This document shows positions 42,914 through 47,251 of a stretch of DNA of 64,000 nt, piece by piece. The stretch's first letter is position 1, and the number at the start of each line of letters is the position of its first letter. Position numbers and translations under genes: made by a program. Source of the DNA: Luteimonas rhizosphaericola (GTDB lineage Bacteria > Pseudomonadota > Gammaproteobacteria > Xanthomonadales > Xanthomonadaceae); NCBI RefSeq assembly GCF_029888045.1, contig NZ_JARXRN010000028.1, positions 763,678-827,677 of the forward strand. The letters run 5' to 3'. Below the pieces are notes generated by a model that saw only the letters and a program-made list of their open reading frames with translations, had not been told where the DNA came from and searched no databases.

Positions 42914-42927
42914 TGATAGCGCTACCA
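42914..42927 (+). promoter_or_regulatory. LacI-family operator-like palindrome upstream of the GPH-GH94-gluconokinase operon
   Basis: TGATAGCGCTACCA is a 14-bp palindrome with one mismatch (perfect form TGGTAGC-GCTACCA). The central GCGC with flanking TA/GG is the typical shape of LacI/GalR operators. TTGCCG at 42901-42906 could be a -35 and TACCAC at 42923-42928 a weak -10, so the operator would cover the promoter. The ATG of the first gene is 51 nt downstream. No LacI gene is in the window. Confidence 0.6.
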
Positions 42928-42978
42928 CGCCAGTGCGGCGCGGACGCCTGCACAGACGGGCGCGGCCCGGGGAGGACC

Positions 42979-44367
42979 ATGCAGGACGAACGCGGCGACA
43001 CACGGCCAGGCGGCACGCGCACAGACGCGCGCCTGCCGATGCGCGAGAAGCTCGGCTACGGCCTGGGCGACTTCGGCTTCAACCTGTACTGGGCCAACAT
43101 CTCGGCCTTCCTGCTGATCTTCTACACCGACGTCATGGGCCTGGCCGCGGCGGCCGTGGGCACGATGATGCTGGTGACCAAGATCGTCGACGCGATCACC
43201 GATCCGCTGATCGGCGCGCTGGCCGACCGCACCCGCACCCGCTGGGGCCGGTTCCGGCCCTACCTGCTGTGGGGCGCGATCCCGATGGCCGTCACCGGCG
43301 TGCTGACCTGGACCGTGCCCGACCTCGACCCCGAGGGCCGCCTGCTCTGGGCCTATGCCAGCTTCACCCTGATGATGCTGGCCTACACGGTGCTGTCGAT
43401 GCCGTATTCGGCGCTGTCGGGCGTGATCACCGCCGACAGCCAGCAGCGCACCACCCTGATCAGCTTCCGCTTCATCGCCGCGTTCGCCGGCACCACGCTG
43501 GTGAACTGGCTCACGCTGGACCTGGTGGGCTGGCTCGGTCGCGGCGACGAGGCGCTGGGCTGGCAGCTCACGCTCGGCCTGTACGGCGTGATCGCCGCGG
43601 CCACCTTCGCCACCGTGTTCCTGACCACGCGCGAGCGCATCGCGCCGCCGCCGCAGCAGCGCAGCGCGGTGCGCCAGGACATCGCCGACCTGCTGCGCAA
43701 CAAGCCGTGGCTGGTGCTGTTCGTGCTGGCGCTGGTGATCATGGTGACGATCGTGATGCGCAGCGGTTCGCTGGTGTACTTCCTCAAGTACCACGTCGGC
43801 CGGCCGGAACTGACCGGCACCTTCCTGGGGCTGTATTCGGTGGCGCTGGCGGTCGGCGCGGCCTCGACCCCGCTGCTGACACGGTGGATGGACAAGCGCT
43901 CGCTGCTGATGTGGCTGATGGCGGGCGTGGGCGTGCTCAGCTGCGCGATGTATTTCGTGCCGGCCGATGCCACCTGGACGCTGCTCGCGGTCAACACCGC
44001 CATCGGCCTGCTGCTGGGGCCGAAGTCGCCGCTGGCGTTCTCGATGTATGCCGACTGCGCCGACTACACCGAATGGAAGACCGGCCGCCGCGCCACCGCG
44101 ATGACCTTCGCCGCGGCCACGTTCTCGCAGAAGCTCGGGGGTGCCCTGGCATCGGCGGCGATCGCCTGGATGCTGGCGGCGATGGGCTACGTGGCCAACG
44201 AGGCGCAGTCGGATGCCTCGCGCCAGGGCATCGTGCTGCTGCTGACGGTGATCCCGGGCGTGGTGGCGCTGCTGGCGGCATGGCTGGTGAGCGCCTATCC
44301 GCTCGACGACGCCGCGCTGGCGCGGGTACAGGACGACCTCCAGGCCCGGCGGGACACCGCCGCATGA
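42979..44367 (+). CDS. GPH-family (glycoside-pentoside-hexuronide) sugar:cation symporter
   Basis: A 462-residue, 12-helix MFS-like permease. The GPH signature is visible: [16 protein letters not shown], then [37 protein letters not shown], with the conserved DxxxG and RxxR residues. It should import a disaccharide or sugar acid with H+ or Na+. ATG 42979 is preceded by GGGGAGGA. Its stop overlaps the GH94 start (ATGA), so it probably brings in the substrate of that phosphorylase. Confidence 0.9.
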
Positions 44368-46751
44368 GCCAGGCCCTGTGCACGTTCGAGGACGGCGGCC
44401 GGCGCTGCGTGCTGCAAGACCCGGTCGCGATGCCGTATGCATCGACGTTCCTCTGGAACCGGCGCCTGCTGCTGCAGCTCAACGGCCGTGGCTACGCGAC
44501 CGCGCAGTTCATGCAGCCCGAGCCCGCGAAGTACGCGCATGCCCCGGCGCTGGAGGCGAAGACCTTCATGCAGCCCGAACAGCCGGTGTATGCGCACCAC
44601 CCGGGCCGCTTCTGCTACGTGAAGGACGAGGAGAGCGGGCAGCTGTTCTCCGCCCCGCATGCGCCGGTGAACCGGCGTCCGGACGCGTTCCGCTGGGAGA
44701 TCGAACCCGGTGGCGCGCGCTGGACCGTGACCTGCGATGGCATCGAGGTCGCGATGTCCGTGCAGCTGCCCGCGGACGAACCGGCCGAGCTGTGGACGGT
44801 CGAGGTGCGCAACCGCTCCGGTCGCGAGCGGAAGCTCTCGCTGTATCCCTACTTCCCGGTGGGCTACATGTCGTGGATGAACCAGTCCGGCGTCTACCGG
44901 CCGGACCTCGGCGCCATCGTCTGCAGCAGCGTGACCCCGTACCAGAAGGTGGAGGACTGGTTCCGCCAGCGCGAATTCCTCGACCGCACCGTGCTGCTGC
45001 ACGGGCGCGCGCCCGACGCCTGGGAGGCGAACCAGGCCGCGTTCGAAGGCGAGGGCGGGCTGCATGCGCCCGACGCCATCGCGCTGTCCGAACGGCTGGC
45101 CGGCAGGGACGCGCTGTACGAGACCCCGACGGCCGCGCTGCAGTACCGGCTGGCGCTGGACGACGGCGCGTCCGACACGCTGCGCTTCGTGTTCGCCCCG
45201 GCGCGCGACGACGCCCACGTCGCCGCGTTGCGCGAGCGGCATCTGTCTCAGGCCGGCTTCGCCGACGCCACCACCGCCTATGCGGCGTACCTGGACGAGG
45301 GCCGCGGCTGTCTCGAGATCGAGACGCCCGACCCCTGGTTCGACGCGTTCGCCAACTGCTGGCTTCCACGCCAGGTCTATTACCACGGCGATTCCAACCG
45401 CCTGACCACCGATCCGCAGACGCGCAACTACCTGCAGGACCACATGGGCATGGCCTTCGTCCGGCCGGCCACCGCGCGTGCGGCGTTCCTGCACGCGCTG
45501 TCGCAGCAGGAGCCCAGCGGCGCGATGCCCGACGGCATCCTGCTGGTCGAGGGCGCGCAGCTGAAGTACATCAACCAGGTGCCGCACACCGACCACTGCG
45601 TGTGGCTGCCGGTGTTCCTCGAGGCCTACCTCGACGAGACCGGCGACCTGGCCCTGCTCGAGGCGGAGGTGGAGGACCGCACCGGCGCACGCCTGCGCGT
45701 GGCCGAGCGCGTGGACCGTGCCATGCAGTGGCTGCTGGACCAGCGCGACGCGCGCGGGCTGAGCTGGATCGCCCAGGGCGACTGGTGCGACCCGATGAAC
45801 ATGGTCGGGTGGAAGGGGCGCGGGGTGTCGGGGTGGCTGTCGCTGGCCTCCGCGCATGCGCTGCGGCTGTGGGCCGGGATGTGCGACGCCGGCGGCCGCC
45901 AGGCGCAGGCGGCGCGCTTCCGCGACGGTGCCGAGGCGTTCAACGCCGCGGTCAACGCGCAGCTGTGGGACGGCGACTGGTACGGGCGCGGGATCACCGA
46001 CGACGGCGTCACCTTCGGCGTGCGCGCCGATGCCGAAGGCCGCATCTACCTCAACCCGCAGGCCTGGGCGATGCTCGGCGGCGCGGCCGACGATGCGCGC
46101 CGTTCGCGGATGATCGCCGCGGTCGAGGATGAACTGGTCTCGCCCTGGGGCGTGGCCATGCTCGGCCCGCCGTACACCGGCATGCGCGAGGACGTCGGCC
46201 GCCTGACCCAGAAGTTCCCCGGCTCGGCCGAGAACGGCGCGATCTACAACCATGCCGCCGCGTTCTGGCTGCATGCGCTATATGCGGTGGGCGAGTCCGA
46301 CCGCGCCTGGCGCACGCTGCGCGCGATGCTGTCCGGGCCCGATGTGGACGACTGCACCCGGCGCGGACAGCTTCCCGTGTTCGTCCCGAACTACTACCGC
46401 GGCGCCTGGCGGCTGCACCCGCGCACGGCGGGACGCTCCAGCCAGCTGTTCAATACCGGCACCGCGGCGTGGCTGTATCGGTGCGTGATCGAGTCGCTGT
46501 TCGGGCTGCGCGGCGAGGGCGCCGGGTTGCGGATCGCGCCGCAACTGCCGTCGCACTGGCCGCGCGCGCGCGCCGTGCGGCGGTTCCGGGGCGCCACCGT
46601 CGAGGTCGCGATCGAGCGCCGCGACAATGTCGCGACGATGCAGGTCGAGGTCGACGGGGAACCGGTCGAGGACGGCCGTATCGCGCAGGTGGCGCCCGGC
46701 CGGCATTACCGCGTGCAGGTGTGGTTGCCAGCCGTCGGGGAAGCGGCATGA
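44364..46751 (+). CDS. GH94 phosphorylase, probably cellobionic acid phosphorylase
   Basis: A 795-residue cytoplasmic glycoside phosphorylase. The N-terminal beta-sandwich contains [11 protein letters not shown] and [13 protein letters not shown]; the (alpha/alpha)6 barrel has the catalytic block QGDWCDPMN with Asp473 and Asp476, and [20 protein letters not shown] near the phosphate site. GH94 enzymes split beta-glucosides with phosphate, releasing alpha-glucose 1-phosphate. The overlapping gluconokinase points to gluconate as the other product, hence cellobionic acid as substrate (the XccNdvB-type activity known in Xanthomonas). Cellobiose, laminaribiose or chitobiose phosphorylase are alternatives. 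Overlaps both neighbours by 4 nt. Confidence 0.78.
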
Positions 46752-47251
46752 GCCGCGTGAGCGTGGCGGTGGTGATGGGCGTGTCGGGCAGCGGCAAGAC
46801 CACGCTGGCGCGCGCGCTGGCGCAGGCCTGGCCGGCGACCTTCCTCGATGCCGACGACTTCCACAGCGCGCAGGCGCGTGCGCACATGGCCAGCGGCCAG
46901 GCGCTCACGGACGCGATGCGCCAGCCGTGGGTGGAGCGCATCATCGAAGACCTGCGCCGTCGCGTGGACGGCGGCGAGCGCGTGGCACTGGCCTTCTCCG
47001 GCCTGCGGCGCCGCCACCGCGACATGCTGCGCGAAGCACGCCTGCCGCTGCGCTTCGTGTTCCTGCACGGCGAGCGGTCGGTGATCGCGGCGCGGATGCA
47101 GGCGCGCAGCGGCCATTACATGCCGGTGTCGCTGCTCGACAGCCAGTTCGCGGCGCTGGAGCCGCCACGCGGGGAATCGGACGTGTTCGCGCTCGACATC
47201 GACGTCGCGCCCGCGCGCCTGCTGGAACAGGCGCTCGGCCTGCTCGACTGA
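46748..47251 (+). CDS. Gluconokinase (GntK family)
   Basis: A 167-residue P-loop kinase with Walker [10 protein letters not shown] at 11-19, then [30 protein letters not shown] and [38 protein letters not shown], all typical of GntK. It makes 6-phosphogluconate, feeding the Entner-Doudoroff or pentose-phosphate route. The ATG overlaps the GH94 stop, so the enzyme is made together with the phosphorylase. Confidence 0.93.

Follow-up and report, generated by a model that had tools for sequence, protein, structure and literature searches.

Three enzymes of family GH94, Sde_0906 of Saccharophagus degradans, XCC4077 of Xanthomonas campestris and NCU09425 of Neurospora crassa, are tabulated as using gluconate as their acceptor in a review (PMC8950772). 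PDB entry 4zle is Sde_0906, a cellobionic acid phosphorylase. In yeast, a transporter-phosphorylase-gluconokinase route assembled from fungal parts led to the use of cellobionate (PMC4537572). Both the enzyme and the pathway are already published. Here, we analyse a related system in the window, which is a stretch of 64,000 nucleotides from the 3.9 Mb genome of Luteimonas rhizosphaericola (contig NZ_JARXRN010000028.1, positions 763,678 to 827,677). Three plus-strand genes, encoding a GPH-family symporter, a GH94 phosphorylase and a gluconokinase, lie there between dnaE and rnhB. We are confident that this cassette is a cellobionic acid utilisation operon that was acquired horizontally and that is presumably repressed by a xylose-responsive regulator of the LacI family, a reading drawn from sequence comparisons. 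What is new is the genomic place of the cassette and its operator; the chemistry of the enzyme is known and the cassette itself is ordinary.

Probable substrate of the phosphorylase and predicted pathway

The product of the second gene contains the GH94 catalytic domain (PF17167, 170.5 bits; PF06165, 89.7 bits). When searched against solved structures, it matched 4zle over nearly its full length with 1096 bits, and the next best match, a cyclic glucan synthase, scored 191.6 bits. Other types of phosphorylases scored lower still: 186 and 131 bits for the chitobiose phosphorylases, 110–119 bits for cellobiose phosphorylases and 38 bits for the laminaribiose phosphorylase. The phosphorolysis of cellobionate proposed in an earlier note on this DNA is supported by this comparison, since the enzyme groups by score with 4zle and not with the cellobiose, laminaribiose or chitobiose phosphorylases (38–186 bits). 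That note had made the pairing with a gluconokinase its key argument for the substrate; the similarity to a characterised enzyme turns out to be the stronger one.

The acceptor site points in the same direction. In 4zle, R609 and K613 hold the gluconate carboxylate; their counterparts here are R613 and K617 (hand count on the printed alignment). This R/K pair is kept in the 80 relatives of the named loci, i.e., the best 80 of the 532 entries of the genome collection encoding a relative. It is replaced by Y/Y in the cyclic-glucan-synthase-like GH94 of the same genome, and neither residue is kept in the aligned sequences of two chitobiose phosphorylases and two glucan synthases. Q352 corresponds by alignment to Q347 of 4zle, which occupies subsite +2 in the S. 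degradans enzyme (excerpt of PMC5309861).

The second GH94 domain of this genome (L002, G000:C13:249641-251833) is part of an open frame of 2910 aa of the cyclic beta-1,2-glucan synthase type. An assignment of the enzyme in the window to the synthases called NdvB (a name given to homologues) was ruled out, as it has 795 aa, compared with 2799–2818 aa in the solved synthases.

Given its closeness to the crystallised S. degradans protein, the GH94 enzyme is very likely a cellobionic acid phosphorylase, and the cassette very likely serves import, phosphorolysis and phosphorylation of the gluconate released. The symporter would import cellobionate. The phosphorylase would then use phosphate to split this acid into alpha-glucose 1-phosphate and gluconate, as expected from its close homology, and the kinase, judging from its family, would convert gluconate into 6-phosphogluconate. 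The best structural matches of the kinase are 4eun (named thermoresistant glucokinase), 3t61 (gluconokinase) and 1knq (gluconate kinase), and it matches the narrower models PRK11545 and PRK09825 below their cut-offs. By the established pathways, glucose 1-phosphate would enter central metabolism via phosphoglucomutase, and 6-phosphogluconate via the pentose phosphate or the Entner-Doudoroff route. That no ATP is spent on the glucose half, as the earlier note held, follows from the chemistry: phosphate activates this half, and one ATP is used for gluconate.

Placement between rnhB and dnaE

We surveyed the junction between rnhB and dnaE in 52 Luteimonas genomes, of which 48 could be scored because both genes are on one contig and 4 could not. 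(In genome counts, the duplicate pairs L033/L148, L034/L132, L039/L147, L046/L135, L050/L136, L052/L140, L053/L137 and L054/L139 were each counted once.) The gap measures 76–323 bp in 26 genomes and 533–1302 bp in 5, spans 3.0–3.9 kb without the cassette in 11, and contains the cassette in 6. In two further genomes, G208 and G326, the cassette adjoins dnaE and rnhB is on a different contig. The phosphorylase is present in 18 of the 52 genomes, and the remaining 10 Luteimonas cassettes sit elsewhere in the genome. The usual adjacency of rnhB and dnaE that had been assumed from the sequence alone is thus true for Luteimonas, and the trio is found at this locus in a minority of relatives (6/48, plus G208 and G326). 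In G208 (L132), dnaE and the cassette have neighbours that by eye resemble cell-division genes, a layout pointing to a rearrangement at the junction.

The phylogenies of the cassette and of its host genes disagree. We built trees of GH94 and DnaE with the 29 genomes having both rows, out of 31 phosphorylase rows (G312 and G218 were dropped), and a permease tree with 27 rows (G097 and G255, with short matches, were dropped). G326 is in no tree because contig ends split its phosphorylase from the flanks. In the DnaE tree, the clade of relocated copies is sister to G328 and G266 (87% and 86% DnaE identity to the window). In the GH94 tree, it groups with 9 other rows, mostly Pseudoxanthomonas, with 74–79% GH94 identity; the DnaE identity of these partners is 68–69% in 8 cases and 77% in G280. 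Approximately unbiased (AU) tests, in which the groups were named after the identities had been seen and the p values are descriptive, gave the same picture. For GH94, they rejected trees that join the relocated copies to G328 and G266 (p 1.6e-25) and trees that unite all Luteimonas in a single clade (p 2e-4). The same two constraints were rejected for the permease (p 7e-11 and 0.02), as were DnaE rows forced into the GH94 grouping (p 3e-63). This conflict between the GH94 and DnaE trees indicates horizontal acquisition: the ancestor of one Luteimonas clade probably received the cassette from a Pseudoxanthomonas-like lineage, and the cassette would there have settled between rnhB and dnaE.

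A second site is consistent with this scenario. Of the 80 named loci, 24 have in the examined flank a gene for a hybrid sensor histidine kinase, with Pfam matches to PAS, HisKA, HATPase and receiver domains. These loci come from Pseudoxanthomonas, Xanthomonas, Stenotrophomonas and [Pseudomonas] boreopolis, and from G328 and G266, the closest two Luteimonas relatives. In all 7 relocated genomes examined here (the 8 without G326), this kinase is present and the surrounding 18 kb contain no match to a cassette gene at thresholds of E 1e-15 and 70 bits. Next to the kinase, the window's genome has a PLD-domain gene, whose counterpart in G328 and G266 is the neighbour of the cassette. At the kinase sites of G123 and G313 (L220, L224), about 3 kb separate the kinase from the PLD-domain gene, where relatives have the cassette. 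Overall, the insertion claimed by the earlier note is well supported as a relocation by the tree conflict, by the cassette-free kinase site in 7 of 7 genomes examined and by the occurrence in 6 of 48 junctions.

The layout of the locus (Table 1) bears out the earlier description of three plus-strand genes between rnhB and dnaE that overlap by ATGA at both junctions, namely at 44364-44367 and 46748-46751, where each downstream ATG overlaps the preceding stop (that of the permease is 44365-44367). The start of the cassette given there, 42914, is no start codon: an operator-like palindrome of 14 bp begins at this base. The permease likely starts at the ATG at 42979, which we preferred to the TTG at 42901 because the latter would put the operator inside the gene. 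The gluconokinase and rnhB are convergent, with 28 bp between their stops, and accA, lpxA, lpxD, bamA and rseP (named by eye from the translations) are on the same strand as dnaE and rnhB. Scans of 42650-47500 revealed nothing like a sigma-70-type promoter upstream of the cassette on its strand and nothing like a terminator between the gluconokinase and rnhB. The three genes are adjoined by neither an outer-membrane receptor gene nor a regulator gene. No tRNA was found in the window; the search did not extend to integrases or to direct repeats at the cassette borders. Among the loci, the nearest named relative is Luteimonas kalidii (phosphorylase 90%, permease 96% and DnaE 96% identical).

Table 1. 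Features of the cassette and its immediate flanks, in window coordinates
Feature	Position	Strand	Evidence
dnaE, left flank of the insertion site	39214..~42759	-	Pfam DNA polymerase III alpha domains
LacI-type operator-like palindrome TGATAGCGCTACCA, 14 bp	42914..42927		ends 51 bp upstream of the permease ATG
GPH-family cation:sugar symporter, presumed cellobionate importer	42979..44367	+	PF13347 321 bits; TIGR00792 395.8 bits vs cut-off 231.35
GH94 phosphorylase, cellobionic acid phosphorylase type, 795 aa	44364..46751	+	PDB 4zle 1096 bits, next 192
GntK/IdnK-type gluconokinase, 167 aa	46748..47251	+	TIGR01313 150 bits vs cut-off 113.75
rnhB, right flank	47280..~47852	-	Pfam RNase HII

The operator-like box and alternative readings

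The palindrome TGATAGCGCTACCA is the sole match in the window to the pattern TGNTAGCGCTANCA with up to one mismatch, 0.04 being expected. Its reverse complement is identical at 13 of 14 positions to the xyl-box of Xanthomonas, TGGTAGCGCTAACA, as this sequence is given in excerpts of PMC10380989 and PMC7748154. All 8 relocated copies carry such a LacI-type box of a first kind, TGRTARCGCTAYCA, beginning 52–72 bp before the aligned start of the permease. A scan of the whole genome of the window revealed 6 sites of this kind, and none for a reversed control pattern. One precedes the cassette, two lie between a group of MFS, GH115, UxaC and GH2 genes and a group of TonB receptor, GPH, GH43 and epimerase genes, and one precedes a GH11 xylanase. 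Of the remaining two, one is upstream of a TonB receptor gene that has a tryptophan halogenase gene nearby, and the other is at the 5' end of a gene for a beta-helix protein.

Among the 10 Luteimonas cassettes located elsewhere, 6 have a second kind of box, TGACARCGYTGTCA, 1 has a two-mismatch form and 3 have a TGTTAGCGTTAAC-type box, which is one mismatch away from the first kind. The second box is also exact in 3 and present with one mismatch in 4 of the 13 Pseudoxanthomonas loci, and the loci of Xanthomonas and Stenotrophomonas have neither box within two mismatches. In the 2.0 Mb of retrieved loci, the second box occurs 13 times, at 9 distinct places, and always in the windows before the permease, where 26 of the 43 occurrences of the first kind also fall. 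In whole genomes, TGACARCGYTGTCA is found as well at loci that contain GH3, TonB receptor, LacI and GH16 genes; the whole-genome scan with the combined pattern has a background of 3–5 control matches, for 7–11 real matches per genome. This pattern of boxes fits a change of operator with relocation. A further box, TGTTAGCGCTAACA, precedes a TonB receptor gene in several loci (L189:7919, near a tryptophan halogenase gene; L201, L202, L204), and in L201, L202 and L204 it is a few kb from TGACARCGYTGTCA-type boxes.

At its new place, the cassette would be repressed by a xylose-responsive regulator of the LacI family, and would thereby be coupled to the xylan-digesting genes. The genome has 8 LacI-family genes. 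None of them could be pinned as XylR, and the 5 that we scanned match the same NCBIfam models, all below the cut-offs.

Several observations weigh against parts of this account. Two of the 6 genomic sites are at genes without an obvious role in xylan use, and 6 of the 13 Pseudoxanthomonas loci have neither box within two mismatches. The first-kind box precedes 16 cassettes outside Luteimonas, in Massilia, Pseudoduganella, Rugamonas, Telluria, Gilvimarinus and Marinimicrobium, and 10 of these have a LacI-family gene in the examined flank, including Gilvimarinus (L092). In the permease tree, the relocated copies of G028 and G162 fall with G060, apart from the other 5; because the relocated permeases do not form one clade, a later exchange is likely.

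The most serious alternative keeps the cassette and its substrate and changes the regulator: the operator at 42914 would be read by a GntR-type LacI repressor responding to gluconate or cellobionate, with no xylan regulator involved. The box may indeed answer to a repressor of this type because 10 of the 16 boxed cassettes outside Luteimonas are among the loci flanked by a LacI-family gene. A motif search found such a gene in the flank of 26 of the 80 named loci, in Cellvibrionaceae, Roseateles/Pelomonas and relatives of Massilia. However, the same search, which can miss divergent genes, found none in the cassette flanks of Xanthomonadaceae, the 8 LacI-family genes of this genome reach at best 31–36% identity to four cassette-adjacent LacI repressors, and xylan genes account for 3 of the 6 genomic sites. 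We regard this alternative as doubtful, if worth retaining.

Far less probable is an ancient gene order that other lineages have lost, without any insertion. The relocated copies are one clade in both the GH94 and DnaE trees, which would fit a single old origin inside that clade, and the rnhB-dnaE gap is wide in 11 other Luteimonas genomes. Yet the 7 of these gaps that we scanned (L115, L119, L121-L125) hold no cassette: their main frame encodes a protein with TPR repeats in 7 of 7 cases, on the strand opposite to dnaE, and 6 of the 7 proteins have a winged-helix domain (Trans_reg_C). The GH94 and DnaE trees are in conflict, and the relocated clade has no cassette at the kinase site, where 24 of the 80 loci, the two nearest Luteimonas among them, carry theirs. 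A gene of the TPR/Trans_reg_C type is also found beside the cassette in G313 and G326 (L130:5653-7836; L150:3427-5568). Since some Luteimonas have TPR genes in wide gaps and others have the cassette, the junction has received two or more kinds of cargo within Luteimonas, or has retained them in some lineages and shed them in others.

Least probable of all, and barely credible in our view, is that the enzyme is a phosphorylase of cellobiose or another beta-glucoside with an incidental gluconokinase neighbour: the GH94 family does include cellobiose, chitobiose and laminaribiose phosphorylases, but the enzyme scores 1096 bits against the cellobionate enzyme and 110–119 bits against cellobiose phosphorylases, a gluconokinase-like gene is found within the examined DNA of 59 of the 80 named loci and the R/K pair is in all 80 relatives.

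Distribution, substrate source and comparison with described systems

The cassette is common in Xanthomonadaceae and beyond, and its placement between rnhB and dnaE is uncommon. Among the matches listed (at least 55% identity, fragments included, unlisted ones being weaker), a phosphorylase of this type is found in at least 66 of the 297 genomes of the family. Of the 80 named loci, 78 gave a match to the GPH gene; L073 and L077 did not, the DNA of the latter ending on that side. The matches to this gene are in two pieces separated by about 0.2–0.3 kb in L065, L080, L081, L082, L091, L092, L111 and L112, which suggests an insert within the symporter in several lineages. The gluconokinase is 3' of the phosphorylase in Luteimonas and Pseudoxanthomonas loci, except in L048, a 3-kb contig that ends inside the phosphorylase. 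It is divergent and upstream in those of Xanthomonas and Stenotrophomonas, with the exception of XNM01 (L049). Two metagenome contigs, labelled Phycisphaerales and Verrucomicrobiia (L067, L069), have a permease, together with a phosphorylase that is 62% identical to that of the window, and may reflect either wide transfer or binning errors.

The literature that we surveyed, by titles and the beginnings of abstracts, does not mention a location between rnhB and dnaE; the founding papers, Nihira 2013 and Nam 2015, fall outside that survey. Cellobionic acid, gluconokinase and operon were never found together in one paper of the literature search, which gave one match with synonyms.

Because neither an AA10 lytic polysaccharide monooxygenase (LPMO) nor a GH5 cellulase was detected in this genome, where these two families were searched and other cellulase families and oxidases were not, the data suggest that cellobionate is scavenged. 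Across the 297 genomes, 37 have an AA10 LPMO and 1 has both this enzyme and the phosphorylase, where 8.2 were expected (Fisher p 0.001, a value that overstates the evidence because the genomes are related). The AA10 proteins of the family may act on chitin. A tentative extension, which could well prove wrong, is that the cassette switched regulon on relocation, from the glucan-type TGACARCGYTGTCA (GH3/GH16) of a donor-like lineage to the xylan-type TGRTARCGCTAYCA (GH11, GH115/GH43) of the relocated clade. For xylan-degrading Luteimonas in which neither an AA10 LPMO nor a GH5 cellulase is detected, xylan breakdown would then be the cue to scavenge cellobionate from fungi or other cellulose oxidisers. 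The locus matters as a catabolic module of three genes that can be traced from a site shared by the family to a new place in a cluster of essential genes, with a different operator there. If binding were confirmed, it would be a simple case of regulon switching, and one in which the use of oxidised cellulose fragments is separated from their making.

Compared with Sde_0906 (4zle) and XCC4077, the enzyme in the window resembles 4zle closely over the full length, shares its acceptor-site residues and would catalyse the same reaction. No difference was shown at the level of the enzyme; what differs is the setting of the gene, a relocated operon that has a distinct kind of operator. The aldonic acid pathway of N. 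crassa (CBT-1, the phosphorylase CAP NCU09425 and a gluconokinase) has the same three steps, whereas here the three genes are one coupled bacterial operon and the importer is of the GPH family, unlike the fungal CBT-1.

The Xanthomonas regulon of XylR is the closest for the operator: the box at 42914 differs from the xyl-box at one position in 14, and its kind is also found here at the GH11 and GH115/UxaC/GH43 genes. In contrast, the passages of PMC10380989 and PMC7748154 consulted name no cellobionate gene under xyl-box control, and the Xanthomonas cassettes themselves lack such a box within two mismatches. Compared with the Xanthomonadaceae cassettes near the hybrid sensor histidine kinase (24/80), the gene families are the same and the order of permease and phosphorylase is kept. 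The gluconokinase, divergent and upstream in Xanthomonas and Stenotrophomonas (except XNM01), is here the last gene of the operon, and the whole lies between rnhB and dnaE behind an operator of a different kind.

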